The notes under the pieces: generated by a model | The model's input: the letters and a program-made list of their open reading frames with translations, nothing else | Told to the model about the DNA's origin: nothing | Database searches by the model: none | Shown: one piece after another, positions 3,624 through 57,512 of the stretch | Position numbering within the stretch: the stretch's first letter is position 1 | How the letters are laid out: each line of letters begins with the position of its first letter | DNA from: Hydractinia symbiolongicarpus | Taxonomy: Eukaryota > Cnidaria > Hydrozoa > Anthoathecata > Hydractiniidae | Length of the DNA: 64,000 nucleotides | Direction: 5' to 3' | Assembly: GCF_029227915.1 (NCBI RefSeq) | Contig: NC_079888.1 | Location: 12,073,001 to 12,137,000 of the forward strand | Made by a program: the position numbers and the translations under genes

Positions 3624-5372
<1,749 letters not shown>

Positions 5373-5554
5373 ATGTTCATTCTCCTTTCTTCATATTTAG
5401 CACCAAAATAACGTTTTCTGCAGATTGGAGGTTATTAAAAAATAACCAAATCAAAATCTTCTTTCTTCATAAATATAATAAAAAATTCAAAAATATAATG
5501 AAATGGAACCATGGACAAAATGCCTTAATACATATCATTAAAAACCTCGTGTTA

Positions 5555-9159: not shown

Positions 9160-10095
9160 AATGTTTAATCGATAGAGCATTCAAATTAAATAACACTTAG
9201 CTAGGGTTTCACACCGATCTAACCGATATTAAAATTATTTTAAAGCGTAACCTTTATCTTGAGTATTTAATTAATAAAATAATTTGTTATTACCTAAATA
9301 ATAAACACAGTGAAAATAAGAGCGTAAATGAGGCGGACGATACACACTACTTTAAGCTTCCATTTATCGGTAACTCGTCCAAACAAGTAAACATAAAAAT
9401 TAACAAGGTTATTAAAAAGTATTGCAAATCACGTTTCATAAAAATTGTTTTTCAATCATTTAAAATAGGTAGCTTATTCTCAACTAAAGATAAAATTCCT
9501 AAGCATTTAAAATCAAACGTTGTCTATAAATTTGCTTGTGCCACCACCTGTTATATTGGTGAAACCACCAGACATATTGGACAACGTATTGACGAACATT
9601 TGAAGAAAGATAAAAACTCTCATGTGTACAAACACATTCGAGAGAAAAAGGAATGTTTTGATAATGCTACTGTTGAATCTTTTTCTATTCTAGATTATGC
9701 ATAAACAAAATGGCAACTCAAATTGAAAGAAGGGTTGCATATAAGTAGGAAAAATCCAGATTTAAATAAACAGGTTAAGTATGTTGACAAAACCCTAATA
9801 GTCTAACATTTATTCTCTGGTACCTACACTTTTTCTTTTGTCTCCTTCCGTCACACTTTCTTTTTTCACCGCTTTCTCTATGAAGCCGTTAATGGTTTTT
9901 TATTATGTTCTTTCATCTATTACTCTGTAAAAGTTTTTATTATATATTAATATTCTTTAATTACTTTCCATTGTATTACGTATATACTCATTATTTTAAC
10001 GAGTTTTGTATTTATATTTATGACAACTTGTAATTTTTCATTATATTGACTGAAGATAATGTCGAAACATGTTTCAAATAAAAAAATGCGTATTT
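9160..10095 (+). pseudogene. Penelope-like element, 3' part with GIY-YIG endonuclease
   Basis: Continuing the frame from 1241, this reads LIDRAFKLNN, a stop, LGFHTDL, then LPFIGNSS, IVFQSFKIGSLFSTKD and a GIY-YIG nuclease block (VVYKFACATTCYIGETTRHI, then GQRIDEHL and SHVYKHI). It ends LNKQVKYV. In-frame stops at NNT*LG and DYA*T show the copy is dead. The GIY-YIG domain downstream of the reverse transcriptase is diagnostic of PLEs. The 3' part (9800-10095) is non-coding and ends near a GAAACATGTTTCAAATAAA stretch. Confidence 0.88.
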
Positions 10096-16700: not shown

Positions 16701-19700
16701 TAATTAAAAAGAAAAAAATTAAACAACAAGTCGGTTCATTAGATATATCTAGCTAGGGATATGTAAACCATTGTACCAATTTCCTTGCATGTATCACTAA
16801 CCAGTGACAAAAAGGGTGAAAGCATTTTTATATGCTTCAAAGTTTAATAAGTGCCAATTCAAACTCAAACTAGCAATGTTACGGATACAAAAGTCGTTAC
16901 CACTACCCACAGTAACGTTAAGTCAAATGTAATGTAACAAAAACGGTTGAAAATACACACTTAAACTGCTTCTCGTTAGACTTGCAACATCACGTTTGGT
17001 TCCTGGACATATACATTCCATCAAATCGATCTCTCAGCTTGGACACAGAAAGAAGAAGTGAAAGGTAGCATGTTTTTAAAAATTAAATATTTCTCATTGA
17101 TTATTAAGATTTCGGATCGGATCCGAATTCTTATTGAAGCCGGCCGATTTCCCTCCTTTTTCTTTTTTTCTTCGTCCAGGAATTTGACTAAAACGCCATC
17201 GATGCCGTTTCCGTTGCGGGGGCAACTTCTTGTAATGACGTATAATGCAACCAATCAGGTTCGAGTATTTTTTGTGACTGAAAGGACCACCAATCAGGGT
17301 TCAGACCGGCTTGCTTTGTGTTGAAAAAGAATCCCGGGGGCTGTACCCGAAATATATCTCAATTTTTGACACATTATAGTTCACACAAAATTATTTAAAA
17401 GTTATAAAAGTATTAAAAAGGTTACATTTAGGGTAAAGGGGCATTCATACGGGACCCTAGTAGGTTGTATTGTTACTTCTTTATTCTCCTCATATGTTAC
17501 CCCCTTGTCATAAAAGCAGAATATGCTGTCGTAAACATAAAGTTTTTTTTCATGATGGCGTTTTCAGCGAGATGAACTAGAAGGGCATTTCTGTCATGGT
17601 AATGTTCTGATCTGATAAGCTTTTCTGAGTAAATTTGTCACATGAGTGATAGCCAGCTAGCTTCTTTATTTCCACTCACTTGAAATGTTGAGTATCATTT
17701 AACGTTGTAAAAATGTTGTAAAATATGTGGATGTACTTTGAAAGTGGCAAAATTAAGGACTTAAATAGTGAAGCTGATATTGATATGATACTGAAAATGG
17801 AATAGTATCCAACCACTTGCATGTTAGATAAGAAGAACTTTACTGAACCCTGAACAATGAAGAAGCATCTTCTGTATTCCGTTTGTTGCAAGGTGGAACA
17901 TTAATTAATAACCATCTCTGAAAGTTTAATAAAGCGTTTTTCTGAGATATGGCGTACATGTCGAATACAGCAATGTGTAGTTAATTTTCAAATTACATCT
18001 CGTGCACTTTTTATCGAGTATGAAGTGCTATTTGGAATAAAGTACAACACACGTCATTGTCCTTCATTCAAAATTTAATACCAATGTTGAAATCATCTAT
18101 TAGTTCAACATGCATATTCCAATACCATGGCAATGCAATAGCGATGGAAATAGCTTCATTAAAACTGAACAAGCAGACAAAGTTGTACTGTTGAATTCAT
18201 TACATAGTTCAACATTCGAACACCTTGCCAATACAATTCCACTAGTCATAAACATCGATTACCAGATAAGCTCTAGTTTCATAAACCAGTGTGTACACAA
18301 AATGGTGTTGACAACTGTCAGTTCTCGTATGTTGGAATTCGGTTCGTCATGTTGCAGGAAAGAAGTGCGTTTTCAGATCATACTTCCGAACACTGATTTA
18401 CCTGTACGCTGTCGTATCGTCGATGCAACTTGGAAAAAATGAACTAAAAATGAACAACCACTATAAACTCTCAGTAAATGTTTAATCGATACTAAATGGA
18501 TTAACAATCAACTAGTGAATGTTTTGCGTTTCAAATGTGTCAGCTAAAGCCTACATTGTCACCCCGATGGCAAATTTTACCCTCTTAGTATCTTTTCCTC
18601 TATATGCGGGATAATTGAAAAAAGGGTTTATCAAATCTATTTACCCTCAGCATGACATATATACACTCATTATTTTGTTTCGTCGGGGAACTTTAATTCT
18701 ATTATACCTTGGCCATAAATCCCAAACTACTTATATTTCAGTGATGAAACTTGGTACAATTGTGGAATGCCTTAACACAAACTTACTCCGGGTAGAAAAA
18801 TAATTGTCCAAGGGATTGGAGATGGTGTCTCACATACCTATAATTTTTCCCATTTTACAATATACTTTAATTTCTCATGCGTCACCAATGCTACAACCTT
18901 AATTATTGGTATATTTGTTGAATGTGTACCATAAAATGATTCGATGTAAAAAAATGAATTTTAATCACTTTATTGAAATTAAAAATCAGGCCATTCCTGC
19001 AAGAAAATTTTAACGATATAAATAAAAAGATCTGCTTTTTCAGAAAAATGAACACCTACGCTATTTAACTTGTAGAAAATATAGACGTCATGGCAATGGA
19101 TTAATATTTCGTCCAAATCTGGTCTGTATTTTATCCCTAGTACCCATATTTGTCCTAACAACTTCGTGATAACCATTTGGTGACCAATAAATATGTATAT
19201 ATTAAATACAACACTTTGCAGTCTTCCATTATTTTTAGCAGTTTTCAAAGTTCAAAAAATTTATTTACACATATCCAAAAATTGCAATAGCTACTTCCCG
19301 AAAAGCATAAATTTTACAATAGAGTTTTAAACTTTTTTTGTATTTGTTCTTTTAAACATAAACTTATATTCACTGTAAATCGAGTAAAACTTATTGTTAT
19401 TCAGCAAAATTATCTTCTTTTAGAACATTTTATGGTTAAGAATGGTGAATGGAGAATTCTGGAAAAGAGGATTTACTATCAAAACATGACTTTTCCTTGT
19501 TGCGATGAGCCCTTCTCCGCTGTCGTTTATCAAATAGTCGTGTCTCGATTATCCCTCTACTATTTTATGTATATTTTACTTCCATTGATCTCGCTTGCGT
19601 TCCTCTTTCTGATGGTGTTTTACATACCATACGACACGGAACGAATGGGTTTCGGCGTGACCGTGCTCCTCAGTATCACAGTGTATCTTCTGGTGATATC

Positions 19701-20094
19701 AGAAGAACTACCGGAAAAATCGGATGATAAATCAATGCTTGGACTTTGTTTTATTATCGAATTTTATATGTTGTGTGCAGCACTAGGACTTTCTCTTTTA
19801 ACTAACAATTTGTCAAGAAAGACTACAGAACCTCCTGAGCTGGTCATAGAAATATACAACAAGCTGCGTAGAAAGCCAACCGAAAAATCTAAAGAACCCG
19901 AGATGGAACTAGAGGTTTTGCATCCAAATAATACCAACCACAAAGAGTCAGAAGAGAAAAGCTTCAACGAACAATGGGTTGACATTGCGCTAACACTGGA
20001 TAAATTTTTCTTGATTTCTCTCAGCGTCGTGATGTTCATAATACCTATTATTGTTTGTCTTAGTCTGGACAGTAGTGGACTTGGCACTGGATAA
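13797..20094 (+). CDS. Nicotinic acetylcholine receptor alpha-like subunit (Cys-loop channel)
   Basis: Exons: 13797-13839, 13926-14065, 14570-14614, 16082-16191, 16485-16629, 16980-17064, 19424-20094. All have GT/AG borders and matching phases, giving 412 residues. The third and fourth exons are 45 and 110 nt, the sizes usual in nicotinic receptor genes. Visible features: signal peptide MLLAHILMTTVCISG; loop A WTPDVVVYN; Cys-loop Cys149 to Cys163 with 13 residues between; loop B GSWTY; vicinal Cys215-Cys216, the mark of alpha subunits; M1-M3; M2 TERMGFGVTVLLSITVYLL; a short M3-M4 loop; M4. The glutamate before M2 fits a cation-selective pore. Three ligand-site aromatics differ from the usual: Phe73 for loop D Trp, and Phe213 and Phe220 for loop C Tyr. 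It should act as a pentameric plasma-membrane channel. The ligand is not certain, and no partner subunit is seen nearby. Confidence 0.93.
14674..14772 (+). repeat. Foldback hairpin in receptor intron 3
   Basis: Two arms of about 40 bp (AATTATTATATACAAGAACA.. and ..TGTTCTTGGATATAATAATT) are nearly complementary around a loop of about 15 nt. It could be a small foldback transposon or a hairpin precursor RNA. It lies in the intron between exons 3 and 4. Confidence 0.6.
17065..19423 (+). other. Large last intron of the receptor gene
   Basis: The intron separates the extracellular-domain exons from the single exon carrying all four membrane segments. It contains a 110-residue open frame at 18110-18442 with no recognisable domain; it is probably chance or repeat-derived. 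No transposon ends were identified. Confidence 0.5.
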
Positions 20095-27357: not shown

Positions 27358-29265
27358 CTACTGATAAAACAAATATCGTCGAATATTAAAATAAGTGGTC
27401 ATGCCAAAATCTTGGCAGTCTTCCAATGGATTGAATCTGTTTCTCAAGTCTGTTATCTGTTCAGGTGTTAATATCGTTGAAGCTTCAGGAACATCTACTC
27501 TAGCCACGTCATTATTGTCAAGTATGGGACCATCCCAGTCAATCCCATAGAAATCATAGTCATCCTGTAGAAAAGTCAAGCATTTTTTTACATTTCTAAG
27601 ATAGTAGTCTATATTTTGAGAACAACTTATTTGTTATTTTGTTTGTTGTTAAGGTTGCTATGTTGTTTGCTACTTTAATTGGAGAAACTTTCGCGAGAGA
27701 AACTTTCGCGAATTCGCGAGTTTTCGCTATTTTCGCGAAAGTTTATCTCGCGAAAATGTGCTAGTTTCTTCATTCGCGAAACTTTATCTCGCGAAAGTTT
27801 TCGAATTTCTTCATTCGCGAAAGTTTCTCCAATTAAAGTATTCTTTTTATATTTTGTTATTTTGTTGCGTTTAGTTTTTGTTTGCAAAATATATGTACTT
27901 ACTTGAATAAGAGCTGCTTTTTCTGCGTCGTAATTGACTTGGCTTTGGTTGTTCAATAACCCCTCAATAAATAGTTGCATTGGTGTTCTTTCTCTAGCAG
28001 AGGACATTTTATGGTGAATCCATCCTTCTCGCCAGATATCCAAATGACGATTTATCCTTGGTAAAATTATGTAATGTAAGCAGGACAGATCCATATCGCA
28101 GGAAGGGTCTAACATATCACAATCTTCCATATAGTAAAACAAATTGTAATACAGTTTCAGCACGCCAGTAAAAGCGTCTCTCCAAACACGTTCTATTCTC
28201 TGATTGTGTACACTCTTACCGCAAATCATACTTCCCGACCTGGACCACGCAAGGGGTGGTTTAACATGAACCATGCAACATCTACATTTTCACCGCCTTT
28301 GTCGGAACGGACACGTGAAGGAAGGCCGTACTTACGGATTGCGTCTGTAAAACACTGAAGAACAGTTAATGCTTTATTATTGTTCGAACATTTTAGGAAT
28401 ACTGGGACTCTACTACATCCATCCACACCACCATGAACGACTATGCGCCATCTAAATAAGAAATAGTAATGGGTACATTATGTGTTGAAAACATTAAGAA
28501 ACTCTTAGTATTAATTGCACACATTGTACAACGGTGCGATACAAAGAAGGTTAGAGGTATATATACGTAAGTATATTCCCTGAAAACATACCGAAAAAGT
28601 TTGTGGTTTCCATCTATGTGACACAAGGAAAACGGTGCTGGTACGTAATATTTACGTCGGTGAACTGGGGATTTTAACCACCTTTCAGTAACCCCAATAG
28701 GGCCAACTCTCCGGAGAGATTCTCTTGCTTTAGTTCTACTCAATCTGATTCCTTGTCTGGATAATTCACCCATTAGTCTCTTATATCCAATATTAGGAAA
28801 TTCAATACAAATACGTTGTACTTTATCGTCGAGTGATTGCTCGTCCACGTGACTGTAAAACATACGTTGAGTTAGTCGAAGTTCTGACATTCTTTTTTGA
28901 CTGTCCTTACAGAAACAGTTAACATGGAAAACGCATGAAAACTGGTTGTCAAGCAAATAGAATAGCTACTCGTAATTTATTTTTACCTTCGGTCTACCAC
29001 GTTCTCCACATGTAAAAGGAACCTCGTAGCCAACTGTAAATTCATTATTTTCAATACTGTCATCAACTAATCTATTTAAGGTGTTATTAACGCTGAGAAG
29101 GTCATCATCACCCAAGTTGCCAAGCCTTAACATTTGTCGGCTAATTTGGTCTAGCAACCTGTGTGCAGAATCAAGTATGTTGTCATCTACAGGCTCTTCC
29201 AAGTCTCTGATAACAGACAGAAGCAAACTACGTATTACACTTACTGCTGCTTCCGCCGACATCAT
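27358..29265 (-). pseudogene. IS3-like (IS3EU-type) DDE integrase/transposase, four exons
   Basis: Exons (minus): 29265-28987, 28941-28592, 28451-27903, 27564-27358. Borders are GT/AG and phases fit, giving about 461 residues. The N-terminal helical region is followed by FPNIGYKRLMGELSRQGI and the integrase core. The core has CHIDGNHKLFR (first Asp), then [14 protein letters not shown] (second Asp) and SVHNQRIERVWRD (Glu), then LPRINRHLDIW and a C-terminal YGIDWDGP block. All three catalytic acids are present. The defect is one missing base near 28240 (RGPGR before SMICG). The family, with bacterial IS3-like cores and many animal copies, is known; IS3EU membership is my assignment. No terminal repeats were found. 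Confidence 0.8.
27673..27838. mobile_element. 166-bp MITE with CTTTAATTGGAG ends
   Basis: The perfect terminal inverted repeat starts CTTTAATTGGAGAAACTTTC and runs on through GCGA; TA lies directly outside each end. The interior is packed with TTCGCGAA motifs in both orientations. It sits in the last intron of the integrase gene. Its ends share CTTTA, GAAACTTTCGCG and the TA flanks with the 7.8-kb transposon at 48536-56341, so it is probably a non-autonomous relative. Confidence 0.8.
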
Positions 29266-47334: not shown

Positions 47335-48535
47335 AATACTTATTTTATGACAGATTGGTATAATCTAAGAGGCAAGAATGAATGCTTTTGCTCTTTAGGC
47401 GTTCTTTTCTAAAGAAGATTTTTCTTCCTATATGATGTAGTAATTTGATTGAATGTCTTTATTGTATAAGAAAGCTTTTTATTGTGTTTTAATGCTAATT
47501 TATTTTGCAAGATTTTGTTAACAAAACTCCTTTACATGCGAAACAAAGAACACCGCAAATAGCGTTATGATATGCTTGTCAAGTTGATGTATAAAAGATA
47601 GAGTGAGATATGTACAATAGATGTGTATATCTACAAGAGATATGTATATCTACATACATATGTATATGCATGTAGGGGAAGTAGAATTCGAATTAGTCCT
47701 TAGTTAATCCTTAAAAACCAATAAAATCTAGCTTCATAAGTTTCAGATCAGTAAAAAGTCAAGCAGCGATTGTTGTAGATGATATTTTCCAACTGAACAT
47801 GAAGTGCAAATGATTTATTTATAATTGTACGTTTCTGTACTTTGCCTAACAAAGTAATATACTTCACAACGCTCGACAAGAACAATTTCGGTGTTACCAC
47901 ACTAGACTGTTACCATTCGTACTTTAGTTTTGAAAGTAAAAACGGCAACATAAAGAAATCTATTTCAAGGTTTTAACGGTTTAAACACCGTAGAACATTT
48001 AAACCAAAAAAAGAAGGAACTGTACAGGGGCAAAAAGGGGCACCTAAAAGTCTGAATTGTTGTGGTACTAAATGTTTTTTAAATTCTTTATAGCTACTGT
48101 TTAAAGAATGGATCATCTTTACAAACACCCCTAAACACTTGTTTGTATGTAGCGAGTGTCACTAGAAACCTTTGTTTATTACTAAATCGCCTTGCAATGC
48201 TGATAAGGAATTCCTCCTCGGTTGGCCGAGAAGCATATTGCGCTGTTAAGAGTTTATAAGTTGGTTGATTACAAGCCGAGAAGCGTATGCTGTTATGAGT
48301 ATATATGTTCATATAACTACTTCAGCGATGACTTTATTTTTTTTAAGAAAATCATTTGTTATTCATAAGGTTGAAAGTGACAATTCACCAATATGTTGTA
48401 TGACGTCAACATTGACAACGATCATATTTCTTTTTTTTATTTCCTATATGAATTTTTTGATTTGTTTTTATATAAGCAGAAGGAATTAGTTTTTCTTACT
48501 TTCTAAACAGTGCGTTGCATAGCTACATATTGATA
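47335..48535. other. No gene recognised
   Basis: AT-rich DNA between two transposons, with a palindromic TATATCTACA/TGTATATGCATG stretch near 47630. A 72-residue minus-strand frame at 48094-48312 has no recognisable domain. Confidence 0.45.
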
Positions 48536-49359
48536 CTTTAGGGGCAGAAACTTTCGCGGGCATTAACTTTCGCATGTCAAATAAAACGCGAATTATTTGA
48601 CAAAAACTTTTGCGTTTGCCAATTTTTGAAACAAATTTCCCGGAAAAAACTTTCGCGAATTTAAAATAAGGTTATATTCGCGTGAAAAAACTTTCGCGAA
48701 TGGGTAAAATCCAAGAAAAAAATTTATTCGTTAAATAACATCTCGGGTATTTACCGTAATCAAAAATGTATAAAATATACAAGGCGAAGTAAATTTAATT
48801 ATCTGCCTCTTCCCATTCTGAGTCAGTATCGTCGTCCCTTTCTTCTCGGGCAACTTACGGAACGTCTGGGATTTGTTAAATTCATCGGCGCACTATAAGG
48901 GTACTAGTCACAATAACAGATGAATGTCCAATAGTTAACATGACTTTAGGGCTTCCTGAAAAAAGGTGTTTTAAATGTAAAATAAATATTATGACGTCAC
49001 AGCCTCGATTTGAAGGTTTTTAAACAATCCTCTTTTCGCGAATATCTCAAAAAATAGAAATACGACAGTCTTTGAACGGCTTTTTTACCGTTCGTAATCA
49101 TTTTGTGGATGAATTACGTCAAAAAAATATGTCGTAAGTCCTGTGCGCATAGTGCGATCATGCTTTTCCGTCACTTTCACAAGAATATTTGTCAGAAATA
49201 GAATGTGTCGGCAAAAATTCACAGTTTTGACGTTATTGCCGTGCCTGCGTCGATACTTTTCCGTGATGCCAGCAGATGTAAAACGCGCGGGAGAATTTTA
49301 AATAGAAATGGCGGATATTCAGCGGGAATTGGAGGCAGAGAAATTCATTCTATAGTTAA

Positions 49360-52300
49360 ATGGCAAATTATTTCCAATGCGCCTTTATGCGAGGAGAGGT
49401 TTTACGTGAGATCCAGAGTGTAAGTTACCACCATGAAGACAGATATAATGCCTTCATATCTATGTTCCCTTCTTGTGTAAACTTGAAGAAATCTCACTTT
49501 AACAGGAAGGCTAAAGAGCTTGTTTCCTTTGTTAGAAAAAGAAAATGGCATGGCAATATCAGGGTTAAGTACTTAAAGGACTTTTCCAGAGATGTTTGGA
49601 ACAAATTCAGCAATGTAGAAAAAAATAAACACACAATCCATAATTGTGAAGGATGTTCTTTTTTACAACTAGAAGAAAAAAATACGTTTCCTACTGCAAC
49701 TGGACACAGAAATAAAAAATATAAAACATCAAAAAAGGTTTTCTTGGACATAACAAACACATTAGACAGTATTACAAATACAGCTATCAATACAAACACA
49801 CCGTTAAATAAAAATATGTCTATAAACACACCAATTGTGTGCAAGCGAAATACACCAGAAGCAGTGAACATAAATACACCTTTAAATACAAACAAGCCAA
49901 TAGATATAAACTCACCCAACAGGACAGAATTGGTGAGTGCTAACACACCTAATAAAATGAACACACCAATAAATAAGAAAAAAACAGGAGACAGCTCTGT
50001 CACCATCTCATTTGAAATACAGTCAACAAAAAATGACATGAAATATATGAAAATTAATGCAGAAGGAGCACTTAAATCAATAAATTCGAAGTGGGATAGC
50101 ATATATGACACACCGTTCACTAAAGTCCTCACAAAAATTAGATCTGTAAATTTAGTTGAGGCCAAGTCTGATTTGCAGAAAAAAAAGGAATTAAGACAGC
50201 GGAACAGCAGAATAAAAAAGTCCTTGGAAAGCAAATGTTATGGAAATGGCAAGGCAATGGAAACTGTTTTCGGGATCAGGCAGTCTGCATCTTCATACAG
50301 AAAATCACGATCGATCCAGTATTTTGAGACAAAGGATGAAGCTGTCCAGAGAATGATAGGTAATCATTACTCATTCCTTTTTTTTCTCTTTCATATCAAT
50401 TTCTTTGTAAAAACTAATTATTTATATTCACATGTTTAGGAAAAAAACATCAATGTGGAGAAGTAGATGCAGCACTAGGTAAAAAGAAGCGGCATAGCCC
50501 AGATCCTAATAAAATAAATTTTGATAAAGCTGCGTTATTGGAAGAAGTAAATAACATGGAAAAAGGAACCAAGGTATATATATGCATGCAATTGTGTACT
50601 TTTCCAGGAAGAAATTTTTTAATTTAATTAATAAAATTTATACAAAACTGTCGTGCAGTTAGCCAATAACAGTGCTCAATAAACATACAAGTTTAGAGCT
50701 TATTAGTAAAGGAAGTAAAAATTAACTTGACATTGGTTCGGTACTCCGAGTTTCGTGTTATACACTCATCAGCCAAATTATACAAGTGAAAAAAGTAAAC
50801 AAAAAAATTCGTATCTATCTATTTGACAAATTCCTAAGAGACATCATTAAATGCGTGGTGTTATAAACATGTGAATAGATAATTGGCTAAGTAATTATCA
50901 GTCCTTAGATTTATAATTAGCCAAAAGAAACTTATTTGTGTGACGACATTTAGCAATGAGTTCACTGCGTTTGTTTAAAAGCTCACTTTTGTCTTTGTAA
51001 AAGAGGATTTCAAATTTTTCTTGAAGACAAAGAGGACAATTTCGTGAATTGTTAGTGTAGCTTTGTACTTGCTGATGGTCGACCATTTGAGCGTCGGGGT
51101 GACGTTGCTTTTCTCTTTCAAGTCCCAAACGTATGATGAAAGTGACGTGCTGTTCTTGTACTTTTTGTTGCTAAAAGACTGTTTGTGGCCATTGAATCTT
51201 GTCTTAAACGATTTCTCAGTCAGACCAATGTAGACTTTCTTTTGGTGAGTGGGTGCTGTAACTTCGCATTTGTATATGACAGACGTCACTTGGCAGTTTC
51301 CTTCCAATGGACATAAAATTTATATATATATATATATATAATAATTTATTATAATAGCAGATTTGCACTGGAAATTTTTTTACGTTTTTGCAGTTTTAAT
51401 CATTCAGTACAGCAAAGATAAGCTCATGTAAAATCAATGGATTCTTGTGAAAATTCAAAAGCTACAAACTTTCCTCCAGTTAAATTAATTGAAGCATACA
51501 ATACAAAATCAATAACTAATTTTAGATAAACTACTCAGAATTAGCACGCAAGTACAATATACAACATACCACTGGAAATATGATCGTAAAAGAATATCTA
51601 CAACGCAACAATGTTGATTTGACCAAGTTTAACAACAACTTCACCAATCCATTTCGTGCTCGTCGAAGATATGAAAAATTTTCAGGTGAGTCACTAAAAA
51701 AAATTAATATTGGTTTGAGTAATTTCGCTCAAATATATTGAAATTCATATTGAAATTTAGGAATTGAAAGATAAAGGAACAATGTTTAAGAGTAACAGTT
51801 TACGTATTTCAAAAATAAATGCACTTGAGTTATTTATTTTCTTCTTACATCCTTATTTGTTAAACATTACATAAAATGTATTTTCTAGATGGTAGTGGAG
51901 TTTCAACACCTTTGCCTCCAACATATGAAAAAATAAAAGAAGAAGTATTAAAAAAAATTGAAAATGGTGAAATTTTATTGGGATCATTAATAGAACCAAA
52001 AACCTACAAAAAAGTGATCATAAAAAATGGGATAATACAAGCAGAGGAATTCACTGTTTTCGGACGTCGTATCCCAATAGATCAAATACGTTACAATATT
52101 TTTATTGAACATGACAGATTAGGAATCCTGAGAGAAACATCAAAAAAAAATCTTACGAGATACTTTATTTTATGGTCTGATCATTCATCCATACTTAGTG
52201 CTGGTCACTTATTGCTCACTGTGAAAGTTGTATATGATACTGATATATTTTACACAGATCAGGAAATATATACAAGGACAGGTAGAGGTTAATTCTATTA

Positions 52301-54787
52301 GAATTTGAGAAAAGATAATTTCAAAAAGCTTTTACATAACCAACTTGATAAATGAAATTATAAGTTACACTAGTTTGTTTCTATTTTTAGGTATGTTATA
52401 TGATGTTCAGGAACTTGTTGAATGTCCTTCTATATATATATTGGGATTTTGTAAAGATAGTATTGCAGAGAAATTGTCATATGTTGAAACAAGGCTTGGT
52501 GATATAGAGGCGATGGCAAAACCACTTATCATCAATGACACAAATGTTTCGCACGTAATGAGGTTTTTTCATGGTGTGTATAATACTTTACAGTAATTGT
52601 GAAACTTTTAACTTTTATTGACATACATTTGTTTAAAAAAATTGCACTGAAAACAACATCGTAAATTGAAGATTTTTTTGTAGGTGATCATCCTGAAATA
52701 CAGTATGAGAGTGGTAATTTACATGGAGGTAACTTTCCATGCCCATGTGGGTGTAGGAAGAGCCGATTCACTGATATAGCACATGTTTACAGTACAAATA
52801 TGATGTCTCTTGATGAGAGAAGGCAAAAGGTATATATATCTACATATACACATATACACACACATATATATATATATATATAATATATCTATATCTATAT
52901 CTCTATATATATATATGTGTATATATATATATGTGTATATGTTTACAGACAATTGCTGGACCAGCTGGTTGTAAAAAAAAAGCTGTTTCCCCATTTCATC
53001 AACTTAACATTGAAGATTTGAGTTTGGAAGTCAACTATCGTAACCTTGACCGACATACGTCTATTCATGAAAAAATGCTCAAAAAGAATTTAGGTTTAAT
53101 ATTAAAGAATGATTTGGCAGGTTAGCACAAAATTTATAAAAGAAAATTGATTCATTATATAAAAAACCATTTATAAAACTAGTTTTTGAATGTCTTTTCA
53201 CAACAGGTATTGCTCGTGTTCCAGCTCTTAGCTTTGGTAACGAACACACAGAAATGGCTGCCCTTAATCTTGGAAAATATGAAGTAATGCCAATCGAACC
53301 ATTGCATGATTGCAAAGGACATATAAAAAATATTTGGGATGTTCTACACGAAGTTCTCAGTACTGACGAAAATAAGATTTTTCAACAATCCTTGGAAGCA
53401 ACATATGGATACAAAGATCAAGTAAGAGGATCAGACTACCGCTTATCAACAATAGTTGCATACCAAGCAATGAAAAATAAGTGTCATGAAGCAGTTGAAG
53501 ATCTCCTATACACTTTAATGGAGATTGTACGGTTAGCGTATGGGAAATCTCTGAAACGATCGCCAAAATATATTTTACGCTTGCACAATATCTGCTTCCG
53601 TCACATGATACTATGCCAATCAGTACTGGGTACAAAGTTGAAAAGTATCTCAAAAGAAAAGTTGTATGGTATATACTATCATTCACTTACAACACATTTG
53701 CCAGAAGTTTCGCGAATCGTTGCTCCAAGTTCCTTACACACAGAGAACGAAGAACAGCTGTTCAGCAAAATCAAATCAATAAGCTTAAGAACATCGTCAA
53801 GAACTTTGGAGGCAATACGTGATAACAGCATCATACGTATCCAGGAGGAGCAAAAGTTCAATGCTAAAGAAAAGCTTGTAAAGTCAACCTCTTCCAAGAT
53901 ATCTGCATTTTCAAAAGTGGTTGGTAAGTTAAGTTATTGTATGACAGCTTTGATGACAAAAATCACAAAAACCCGTGCATTAATAATATTGAATTTTATT
54001 TAAAAACTATATATTGCTAACTATTATTGAAACATTTCCATGTTAAAGAACAAAGTATTTCTCTAAATGCTATATGGTATTTTAGATGGGCATGAACGGA
54101 GCTGTTTTGACATAGATATGCCATTGAGAGATTACCAGGCTCACTTAGAAAGGATAGGTGACTTTCTGGTATGTGGCATTGGTGTTTGGTGGCATAGGGA
54201 GAATGGAAAATTTGTATTCCATGATGACGAGAAGGACGATGATTTTAAATGGGAGGGTCCTGAAATGACAAATTTTAAAACACACAACCTTCAATCAGTC
54301 GCGAATGAAGTGCAAGCCTGTTGGAAAAGGTGCATTACAGAAGACATTGATTTGCCTATCACAAAAATAAATATTTATAACAAGGACGGTGATTTTGAAA
54401 ATTGCAAGGTTTGATTTTAATTTGTTAGTTATTCTCCTTCAATTTTTCTCCATTTTTAAGCCAATTTTTTACTGGCTTACGTTGTTTCATATATGGATCT
54501 CAATTTGCTGACAAGTGAAACAAAACCTATATATACATTTAACAATAAAAAGTTTTTAGTCGTGTAGTCGATTATGTATATAAATATATACCAATTTGCA
54601 AAAATTCATGGCTAAGATTTTAACTTTAATTTAAATTCAGGTCATTCATAATGATGAGTTAACACTACTTAATACTGATGATAATATTCAAACTGAAGAG
54701 GATGAAAACACTGTGATTGATATATCAATGGAGCAGCAACCTGGTTTTCTGAATATGGCAGATGAAAAAAATGATTTTGACAGCTAA
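49360..54787 (+). CDS. Putative transposase of the 7.8-kb element, ten exons
   Basis: Exons: 49360-50359, 50440-50573, 51526-51685, 51889-52281, 52391-52573, 52684-52829, 52949-53120, 53207-53923, 54086-54408, 54641-54787. All introns are GT/AG and all phases fit, giving 1,124 residues. A start at 49308 (MADIQRELEAEKFIL) is possible if a small intron or shift follows. In order: a basic N-terminal region with HTIHNCEGC; an Asn/Thr/Pro-rich linker; a helix-turn-helix-like INYSELARKYNI (from 379); WSDHSS (Asp529); a metal-binding-like CPCGC (643-647); EPLHDCKGH (Asp764); TENEEQLF (Glu909-912); and a C-terminal WWH block. The Asp, Asp and Glu are my candidates for a DDE triad. I recall similar uncharacterised proteins in cnidarian genomes, but no named family. 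Catalysis is inferred from its position between the terminal repeats. Confidence 0.82.
50735..51310 (-). pseudogene. Penelope-like element 3' fragment in transposase intron 2
   Basis: On the minus strand from 51307: VTSVIYKCEV, then KKVYIGLTEKSFKTRFNGHK, SSYVWDLKEK, and, after a frameshift near 51070, CPLCLQEKFEI, LLNKRSELIAKCRHTNKFLL. This is the GIY-YIG endonuclease and C-terminal Cys/His block of a PLE, of a different subfamily from the copy at 931-10095. A hammerhead ribozyme follows at the 3' side in the same orientation. A short (TA)n run borders it at 51320-51341. It is a truncated retrocopy in an intron and need not affect the host transposon's coding. Confidence 0.85.
50737..50777 (-). 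ncRNA. Hammerhead ribozyme of the Penelope-like element
   Basis: On the minus strand: stem I TTTGG pairs with CCGAA (one G-U); core CTGATGA; stem II GTGT-ATA-ACAC; core GAAA; a short stem III ACT-CGG-AGT; then TA as the expected cleavage dinucleotide. All conserved core nucleotides are present. Hammerheads with very short stem III are known in Penelope-like elements, where they process the tandem RNA. Location downstream of and in line with the GIY-YIG fragment fits that. Activity of this copy is untested. Confidence 0.85.
52850..52941 (+). repeat. TA-rich microsatellite in transposase intron 6
   Basis: Mixed TATATA, CACATA and TATCTA runs fill most of the intron between exons 6 and 7, ending just before the acceptor at 52948. 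Confidence 0.8.
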
Positions 54788-55177
54788 GGTCATCACATGG
54801 AAAAGAAAGTTGACAAGCAAGTCATGCAGGTTGAACAAGAAATTCCGTTGGAATCAGAAATTGCACGAAAGTTAAAGTTTGTCATTGGCTATTGTGATAA
54901 ATTGAAAGAATTCGACTATCATCATAGTGTATACAAAGACACGAAACGTGAATATTCTAGAAAAAAGTGTAAAGTGTTGATTACACATTTTCGAAAGTTA
55001 GTTTTAGATGCCGAAAGTGAAGCAGAAACCTTTATAAAACAATGGGAGAAAGAATTTGTTATAAAGAATTCCAGAGTACCAAACATCAAAGACTTAAAGA
55101 CAAATGATAATTATATGAAAAAGTATAAAGTTGCATATGTTGGTAAAAAAATACTTTGCCAGTGGAAAGATATTTAA
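54788..55177 (+). pseudogene. C-terminal continuation of the transposase after one in-frame TAA
   Basis: The frame of exon 10 stays open directly after the TAA at 54785-54787 for another 129 codons, reading through MEKKVDKQVMQ, IARKLKFVIGYCDKLKEFD and IKQWEKEF to a stop at 55177. AATAAA lies five bases beyond that second stop and none lies between the two stops. The segment is charged, helical and codon-like. The simplest reading is a recent nonsense change in a protein of about 1,250 residues. Stop readthrough or a separate small protein starting at 54797 are alternatives. Confidence 0.7.
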
Positions 55178-56303
55178 TGATAATAAACTTTCACATTAGA
55201 AATTTTCTCAAACTTTTTTAGACACATTTTTTGAAATAATATATAGCTAAGAATTTTTGAGTCTTTTGAAAATTTCTAATGTAAAATATAGCTTTTTTAA
55301 ACATATATAGCTTTAATGTATTTACTTACTGGCTATACTTAATCTAAGAGAATACTAGCTAAATTGCTTTTCTAATTAAGCTTCTCTTTTTGTACAGAGG
55401 TGGGACTTGCACCCACAACTATTTTAGCTAGCTAATCTGCTGTGATCTACGACATTTCCAGGTATTATTAATTAAATATATATATAACTTTAATTATGCT
55501 TTTACTAGTAGTTTAAATATATATTAGTTATAATTTAACAAACCTTGATTTTCTGTGTAATCACTACGGGTACCTTTGTCAACGTTACGTTCCTGAAGAT
55601 GGCGGTGCCTTCCTTCACAAACTTAAAAAATTGGCTCATCATCGATGTAGTCATACACAAAAACACACGTCAAAACAAACACGTCAGATAGCAAAACGCG
55701 GTATAAAATTGTGAAAAACGCGGTATATACGTGCTTTACCCGAAATAATTCCAGACGTTCCGTAAGTTGCCCGAAATTGCTTCCACATAATACTTCAAAT
55801 TCCTCAACTGTGACATCAGAAATTGCTAAGAGATGGCTATCATCAGATTGCCCAACATCATTACTCAGCATCGGATCTATATCTTGGAAAGGATCAATCG
55901 ATGGCATTTTGCCTGAACCGAACAAAACCAACAGAAGAGATAGCGGTTGGAAATCTGTTTAATTTTGTCATGACGTCGCCGCCTACAGTCGTTACACCGC
56001 AAGCCCCGGCAAAAGAAAGAAAAGTCTGCATCCACAAGCACTGTTTCAAATAATCGGGACACCCGAGAAATGCTCGCAGCTCCAAAGAAGAAAAAACACC
56101 AAGTGTTATTGTAGTTGACGACGAATAAAGTAGAAATAAATCATTACTTTTGACAATTCCCCGTTTTTATGATTTTTTTTATGGTGAAAAAACTTTCGCG
56201 TTCTGAAAAATATCCATGATTTTGTGTGAAAAAACTTTCGCGTTTTGATGATTTAGAATTTCCAAAGTCGCAAAAATGACCAAAAAACGCAAACGCGAAA
56301 AAC
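55178..56303. other. 3' flank of the transposase inside the transposon; possible small exon
   Basis: AATAAA at 55182-55187 probably ends the transposase mRNA. On the minus strand an acidic frame from 55909 (MPSIDPFQDIDPMLSNDVGQ) runs to LELFR before a GTAAAG donor-like site and could be an exon of a second gene. A T-arm-like GTGGGTGCAAGTCCCAC (minus strand, near 55400) suggests a tRNA-derived SINE piece. None of these is firm. Confidence 0.35.
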
Positions 56304-56341
56304 GCAAAAGTTAATGCCCGCGAAAGTTTCTGCCCCTAAAG

Positions 56342-57512
56342 TAGTCTTTAATAATAATAATAATAAAAAACACTATAAAAGAAGTCACTTGGTTAACAGG
56401 AGAACATGCTTTTGTAAATGTTATCTCTTTCTAGAAAGCCTTTTTGTTGTAAATTTAGTTAAGGTGGCGTTTCTGGTGCGTTTCACGGTAACGGCGTTAA
56501 GTTTCCTTACTCTAGTTTTAGAAATGACGTTCTGACCATTCATGCTGGACATGTCAGTGCTATAAAGTTTAGTTTTCTATCAATTGTTAATTAAGACTGC
56601 TTTGTCACAGAAATAATATGTCTTCCTTCTCGCTATTATTTCAGGATTTTTAAAGTGTTGTAAGTCACGTAAATATGTGCTTTCAAATATAACATGCCGC
56701 ACATGAAATAGTTGGATTAAGTAACAAGCATCTCTTTTATTATCTTTTGCCTGTTAATAATGTCCGGTTTATTTGATTAAAGGAAAAAAAATAAGTTTCA
56801 AAATCTGTCATTGGAAAATATTTTTCCTACAACGCGATTTAACTATACATCTATGCAGTATTATCGCCCTCAAAGGCCCGTGGCTCAATAGTATTCCACT
56901 GGTATAGGCACCGTTAATCTATAAGGATAAATCTTTCTTAGCCACATCATCCCTAGATATTATAGAGGCTTTTAAATTATGGAGGTCTTCTGGGACTAGG
57001 TAATCAAGTGAAATGTGAGGGGCAACAAAGAACCAAATAATCAACAAAACAGGCTCGGTACTCTATAAAATACATGTGTATTATAATACTCAAATTTCTG
57101 TCTGTGAGCCAAAAATATTGGCTGGGAGTAGCGACAGGGAAAAGCTCGCGTTTTTTTTGGTTAAGTTTGTTTTGGTCAAGTTTATTTGTTTAAGGATAGC
57201 TCAAAATTGTGGTGATAAATATCAGTGATTACGAAAATATAAAGTTTCTCCTCAGTTATTCGCGACGCATGAGCGTGAAAAGACTTTTTAAGATTTTAAA
57301 TATGACGAATGACAGATCTTTAATACAGTGGCTCACAAGTTTCACGGCAAAAGAAAAAAAGATCTCGGCAAAACAAGAAAGTTCAGAAAATAATATCAAT
57401 TCACTTGTCATCTAGCTGTGTGGGTAGTAGTGGATATGTATAGTTAATAAAATTCCAATATCCTGGCACGTTCTTTGTATGAAAGTACTATTAAATACTT
57501 TATAACCTAATT
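56342..57512. other. No gene recognised
   Basis: AT-rich DNA beginning with a short (AAT)n run near 56350. A 68-residue frame at 57209-57415 has no recognisable domain. Confidence 0.45.

Follow-up and report, generated by a model that had tools for sequence, protein, structure and literature searches.

What kind of element occupies positions 48534 to 56343 (flanking TA included) of a 64-kb stretch, C14:12073001-12137000, of the Hydractinia symbiolongicarpus genome, hereafter the window, and where does the protein that it encodes belong among known transposases? The original prediction, made from the letters alone, described a large, nearly intact DNA transposon with an intron-rich transposase gene. 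Our analysis indicated that the locus is very probably a DNA transposon of H. symbiolongicarpus encoding a DDE transposase of the cut-and-paste kind, whose core is of the RAG1/Transib type. Judged by searches and modeled structures, its mode of life would be that of an ordinary mobile element, and its transposase lineage, which matches no named family searched, appears to be tied to RAG1 by its fold.

The first question is whether the ends are those of a transposon. The predicted 38-bp ends with one mismatch and TA flanks were reproduced, forming inverted arms of 40 nt with TA included (48534 to 48573 and 56304 to 56343), and 100 shuffled sequences averaged 0.00 matches with three or fewer mismatches. 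The termini read CTTTAGGGG..CCCCTAAAG and are not of the CAC type that resembles recombination signal sequences (RSS), and no direct repeat longer than TA was found at the edges of the window element. The repeated subterminal sites were likewise borne out: the motif AACTTTCGCG was observed 11 times in the window against 0.06 expected, with six sites inside the transposon (five on the plus strand and one on the minus strand) and the other five in a short element at 27671 to 27840. The features of the two ends are as follows.

48534 to 48535, no strand: left TA, presumed target duplication (TA is outermost in most other two-ended copies)
48536 to 48573, plus strand: left terminal inverted repeat, 38 bp
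48549 to 48558, plus strand: AACTTTCGCG site in the left terminal inverted repeat
48648 to 48657, plus strand: subterminal AACTTTCGCG site
48689 to 48698, plus strand: subterminal AACTTTCGCG site
48846 to 48873, plus strand: left arm of an inner inverted repeat, 28 nt, 96% paired with 55747 to 55774
55747 to 55774, minus strand: right arm of the inner inverted repeat
56191 to 56200, plus strand: subterminal AACTTTCGCG site
56233 to 56242, plus strand: subterminal AACTTTCGCG site
56304 to 56341, minus strand: right terminal inverted repeat, 38 bp, one mismatch
56319 to 56328, minus strand: AACTTTCGCG site in the right terminal inverted repeat
56342 to 56343, no strand: right TA

A minus-strand open reading frame (ORF) of 111 amino acids at 55623 to 55958, in the right part of the transposon, contains the right arm of the inner 28-nt repeat, and a Pfam scan of it gave no family. 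A third pair of TACTTTA ends in the window (7044 and 18044) matched at 17 of 24 positions and was taken as chance.

Do the same ends recur at other places? A search with the left 187 bp gave at least 45 matches in the genome, a lower bound since 40 of 168 candidates were scored. Loci were fetched for 20 of the 44 other matches, and copies bounded by both ends, which the original prediction had proposed to look for, were found at 15 of them, with the ends separated by 490 to 7,193 bp. Flanks are shared within two pairs of copies, which gives 13 independent sites. All 15 copies have TA outermost at the right end and 12 have it at both ends, and no direct repeat of 3 to 9 bases was seen outside TA in any of 17 rows (window, short element, and 15 copies). 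In the three exceptions (L027, L028, and L030) the left edge is altered, reading AAGTATA against the expected TACTTTA, as if joining or copying had brought in a neighboring right end (TAAAGTA). The shared ends are mostly CTTTA..TAAAG, and because most copies of this family and of the short element keep the outer CTTTA at unrelated sites, CTTTA is probably the element's own and the border lies at TA. None of the 20 fetched loci encodes the transposase at an E value of ≤1e-5.

The short element is a miniature inverted-repeat transposable element (MITE) with a 25-bp inverted repeat.

27671 to 27840, no strand: separate non-autonomous element (MITE), 170 bp, with related ends TACTTTA-N5-AGAAACTTTCGCG

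Pieces matching its family number at least 120 in the genome. Of its fetched copies, 12 of 20 were two-ended, with TA at both ends in 11 and no direct repeat of 2 to 11 bases beyond TA; ten of the 12 measure 388 to 454 bp (one with altered ends), one 161 bp, and one 608 bp.

The second question concerns the gene. Its ten exons, joining in phase into 1,124 codons up to a TAA, were reproduced exactly, with nine GT-AG introns, and are listed here with the downstream frame and an ORF nested in intron 2.

49360 to 50359, plus strand: exon 1, encoding the N-terminal domain W..L....K..HT...C..C, which may bind zinc, and the beginning of the RAG1-core-like region
50440 to 50573, plus strand: exon 2
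50975 to 51319, minus strand: GIY-YIG-like ORF in intron 2, weak match to window ORF 9201 to 9704 (E 0.036)
51526 to 51685, plus strand: exon 3, helix-turn-helix-like segment, in the region aligning with RAG1 from about residue 459
51889 to 52281, plus strand: exon 4, predicted first catalytic Asp, D529 (codon 52179 to 52181)
52391 to 52573, plus strand: exon 5
52684 to 52829, plus strand: exon 6, predicted second catalytic Asp, D625 (codon 52686 to 52688), and predicted zinc ligands C643 and C645
52949 to 53120, plus strand: exon 7, with exon 8 carrying a divergent SAP-like segment (about residues 687 to 735)
53207 to 53923, plus strand: exon 8, LHDCKGH motif (H763 to H768), predicted zinc ligands H888 and H893, predicted catalytic E909 (codon 53743 to 53745)
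54086 to 54408, plus strand: exon 9, conserved block QAHLERI.DFL..G.GVWW on the C-terminal side of the core
54641 to 54787, plus strand: exon 10 as far as a premature TAA (54785 to 54787)
54788 to 55177, plus strand: remaining C-terminal domain past the stop, homologous to relatives

The exon model is supported by the matches of six genomic copies (L059 to L064), which are interrupted near common residues (563, 624, 673, 730, and 967 to 972). Ten exons are not the rule in the group, however, since more distant matches in the same genome sit in single open frames of 600 to 987 codons (for example, C12:340550-341197); intron content thus varies strongly among these transposases. Past the TAA the frame stays open for 129 more codons, with 48% identity to residues 736 to 861, the C terminus, of the Hydractinia protein P0001 (E 4e-35), and this stretch is also detectable in other relatives. 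At the position of the TAA, the seven genomic copies compared all have an ordinary residue; L058, the nearest sibling (97.7% identical DNA over 2,593 bp), is among them. The stop is therefore private to the window among these copies; L059 and L062 have one and five stops, respectively, at other places in the aligned region, and that region may cross introns. Because the homologous frame continues and the stop is absent from the seven other copies, 1,124 residues is a truncated length, and the window copy has lost its last 130 codons and, with them, perhaps its autonomous action. The part past the stop resembles Drc1-Sld2 weakly (22.2 bits, below the cutoff of 28); among relatives this family appeared at an E value of 0.23 in one of 26 (alignment A5) and was not among the 20 families listed at E ≤ 1 for 17 relatives (alignment A2), and it is kept as a hint. 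The antisense ORF in intron 2 has no Pfam match, and we take it to be probably a fragment of a Penelope-like element nested in the transposon. Given this probable fragment and the private stop, the description of the element as nearly intact did not hold.

How mobile has the family been? With 150 of 162 candidates scored, the 238-residue exon-8 protein matched at least 146 genome pieces, of which some belong to one and the same copy. This number contradicts a single-copy gene, an outcome that would have spoken against a transposon. One match, C1:31091352, is 98% identical to the window copy. An equal-scoring set comprises 20 matches on ten contigs, with an open frame of 275 codons in 19 and of 267 in one, and the two compared, which lie on different contigs, share 99.92% DNA identity over 3,714 bp; the four copies L059 to L062 are 97 to 99% identical. 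As far as sequence can tell, these near-identical copies point to recent amplification of related families and not of the window copy itself. The earlier suggestion that the close match of the ends reflects recent activity is accordingly weak for this copy, although a related family does have near-identical copies.

The third question is what the protein is. Protein searches gave 68 usable relatives, with H. symbiolongicarpus, Clytia hemisphaerica, Mytilus coruscus, and Ephydatia muelleri as named sources; the organisms named among the matches were animals only, and most matches were unnamed. A second homology search with an alignment query scored the 7,993 candidates sharing most words and returned eight matches. 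Five alignments were built: A1 (16 of 25 relatives plus the window protein), A2 (17 of 25), A3 (31 of 31), A4 (54 of 69), and A5 (26 of 69). In a tree of 64 of 69 rows, from which five with fewer than 300 core columns were dropped, the window protein clusters with P0001 at a local support of 0.996. P0069 was dropped from the 69-row alignment used for residue conservation and zinc motif counts; this Em-prefixed gene model from EukProt fuses a transposase to a reverse transcriptase and an integrase, probably a prediction artifact.

By sequence the protein indeed falls in no named superfamily. A Pfam scan of the window protein gave no family at E ≤ 10, and at E ≤ 1 no transposase appeared among the 20 families listed for 17 relatives or among 25 of 31 shown for 26 relatives. 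SAP was found by Pfam (E ≤ 1) in 10 of the 17 and 14 of the 26 relatives, and the SAP-like segment of the window protein is too divergent to score. NCBIfam returned only four weak and unrelated names for the 17 relatives, and a Protein Data Bank (PDB) profile search recovered SAP domains only; a hit to Tim29 in a PDB sequence search (E 0.54) was taken as chance. No relatives were confirmed in viral contigs (40 pattern stretches) or prokaryote contigs (73), the left end occurred zero times as exact DNA in viral contigs, and no viral structure matched at E ≤ 0.001.

By predicted fold, in contrast, the protein that the original prediction could not place is grouped with RAG1/Transib. The models are of relatives of the window protein, and they predict an RNase H core, which the original prediction had named as support, with three acids in the catalytic places; their best structural matches are RAG1, HzTransib, and BbRAGL, and the predicted core runs along RAG1 from about residue 459 to 1008, corresponding to about residues 288 to 953 of the window protein. 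The predicted helix-turn-helix-like segment falls, in exon 3, within this region. Assigned from secondary structure, conservation, and spacing, the catalytic triad would be D529, D625, and E909, conserved in 59 of 61, 65 of 65, and 62 of 62 sequences, respectively. Of the acids named earlier, D529 and E909 therefore stand; Asp764 is invariant (67 of 67) yet lies in a helical insertion, with D625 at the expected place, so the second catalytic Asp is assigned to D625. The distance from D625 to E909 is 284 residues in the window protein (group median, 279). A zinc site is predicted at C643, C645, H888, and H893: H(4)H occurs in all 62 sequences of the group, and the Cys pair is C(2)C in 57 of 64 and C-x-C in 7 of 64, namely, the window protein and its nearest relatives. 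The pair H763/H768 of LHDCKGH was dropped as zinc ligands, since the two histidines of H888/H893 are spaced as in RAG1, and their distance to the Glu is nearly that of RAG1.

These features suggest how the element may move. The core would begin with the RAG1-aligning segment, which includes the helix-turn-helix-like stretch, and continue as an RNase H fold into which a helical, zinc-binding insertion is set. Binding of the terminal repeats and of the AACTTTCGCG sites in the subterminal regions may fall to the N-terminal domain and the helix-turn-helix, and the two element ends would be paired; the DDE center would then cut the strands, possibly via hairpins as in RAG1, Transib, and hAT, and the ends would be joined 2 bp apart to TA in the target DNA. 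Many short copies carry these ends and appear to have been produced by a shared transposase, and, as a guess, the SAP segment of relatives may aid DNA binding.

Several observations weigh against a TA-inserting transposon with a RAG1-type core. No empty site was found when 27 joined flanks were compared with 334 kb of sequence, so TA could be the element's own instead of a duplication. The window copy is the sole coding copy whose ends were observed, and the search with the left end, which scored 40 of 168 candidates, did not list that of its 98% sibling, L058. The structural matches to RAG1 have 9 to 13% identity, and hhalign of a profile of 31 relatives (A3) against one RAG1 sequence gave a probability of 0.2%. 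The triad was assigned on models of relatives, N replaces D529 in two of 61 sequences, and the subgroup of the window protein departs from C(2)C. No CACTA, Chapaev, ESTA, or Plavaka structure was among the best 50 structure matches listed, which excludes nothing, and the termini lack the CA..TG form that is usual in CMCT.

The last question is whether this is a new kind of element. The chances seem about evenly balanced that the group is a so far undescribed DNA transposon superfamily of animals, ranging from sponges to hydroids and molluscs, with a RAG1 fold, the zinc and DDE layout, and TA insertion, lying outside the Transib and RAG clade. It could instead belong, as an animal branch, to ESTA or to another CMCT lineage such as Mirage or Plavaka, and so be a known kind in a new host, which we regard as possible and rather unlikely. 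ESTA is nearest in end type; passages of PMC12730594 describe it as EnSpm-like, from rust fungi, with TA duplications and HHpred similarity to RAG1, and PlavakaA as having 2-bp duplications. TA at the ends, a RAG1 relation by structure-aware comparison, and the CMCT zinc motif, with C(2)C and H(3-4)H, are common to both (PMC12730594). Against this reading, no transposase family is among the Pfam families listed, the termini differ from CA..TG, and the named matches are from animals, with most unnamed; the CMCT lineages, ESTA included, were set against the group by description only. EnSpm/CACTA elements share the CMCT zinc motif and differ in their CAC..GTG termini and 3-bp duplication, neither found here, and in their Pfam transposase match, absent from the families listed. 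EnSpm/CACTA has its own Pfam transposase model, and EnSpm elements, like the element here, carry repeated subterminal motifs and several introns.

Repbase holds hydrozoan families, and the group may already be catalogued there or in Dfam under another label, which we likewise regard as possible and rather unlikely. In the related hydroid Podocoryna, unknown repeats make up 35.7% according to a passage of PMC13119343, leaving room for such families; no description of the group was found in open-licence PMC text among the matches listed.

That the element is a diverged member of the Transib or RAG-like (RAGL) transposons proper appears improbable. The best structural matches and the same zinc and DDE layout, with similar spacing to the RAG1 core and ProtoRAG-type RAGL, speak for it. 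Passages of PMC4411706 and PMC8355894, and of PMC9435367 for AanRAGL, however, give these elements 5-bp target duplications and RSS-like (CAC) termini, whereas here TA is found and a 5-bp duplication in none of the 17 rows. RAG1L cores and Transib share a mean identity of 26% according to PMC9435367, against the low structural identity here, and no sequence similarity to RAG1 or Transib was recognizable by hhalign with one RAG1 sequence, among the listed Pfam families, or in the PDB profile search. Unlike RAG1/RAGL, the protein has an additional domain at its N terminus and a WW block at its C terminus, and its relatives have a SAP insertion; it differs from HzTransib in its longer, intron-rich gene. 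Four ORFs of the element scanned with Pfam gave no match to a kelch family, which would have pointed to a RAG2-like gene.

Other superfamilies fit less well. P element and hAT (Hermes) transposases gave a weaker structural match than RAG1; their duplications are of 8 bp, and to our knowledge they have no such zinc layout. Tc1/mariner elements duplicate TA, as would be consistent here, but their D-E spacing is about 34 to 41 residues, far from that of D625 and E909. KDZ elements (Zisupton and kin) have 8-bp duplications, and Kyakuja 7-bp ones, as passages of PMC12730594 state; no duplication of 7 or 8 bp was found here, nor a Pfam KDZ family among those listed. A transposase-derived host gene with incidental inverted ends, which motifs conserved over long distances in animals might suggest, is highly improbable in view of the many matched pieces, the near-identical dispersed copies, the numerous short derivatives with the same ends, and a stop codon not found in seven other copies.

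Elsewhere in the window, the MITE extends into an rva_4 integrase ORF at the 3' end of the latter (27675 to 28289, minus strand), and minus-strand ORFs at 27675 to 28965 have rva_4 integrase core and HTH_21 Pfam matches, possibly a second DNA transposon. The ORF at 993 to 1373 is reverse-transcriptase-like (YVDDIF), and that at 9201 to 9704 resembles GIY-YIG (Pfam E 0.0011, below the cutoff); presumably both are pieces of Penelope-like elements. In addition, a CAGA/TCTG tetranucleotide repeat of about 1.1 kb (4221 to 5400) is open in several frames on both strands, and a neurotransmitter-gated ion-channel transmembrane domain (PF02932, E 2.6e-17) at 19291 to 20094 is probably a host gene exon.

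According to passages of PMC4411706, PMC8355894, and PMC9435367, the discussion of how the RAG recombinase arose draws mainly on Transib and RAGL elements. Another animal lineage that shares the predicted fold and the zinc layout, and has other termini and another target, would serve as an outgroup for ranking RAG1 traits (hairpin cutting, the 5-bp stagger, RSS-like ends, and RAG2) as ancestral or not. If the reading is true, RAG1-type recombinases would be one branch of a broader transposase radiation, and part of the unclassified repeats of hydroid genomes would gain a name. Moreover, one family would have amplified very recently in H. symbiolongicarpus, a laboratory animal, and could be tested in living animals, and its near-identical copies would be a natural place to look for activity.

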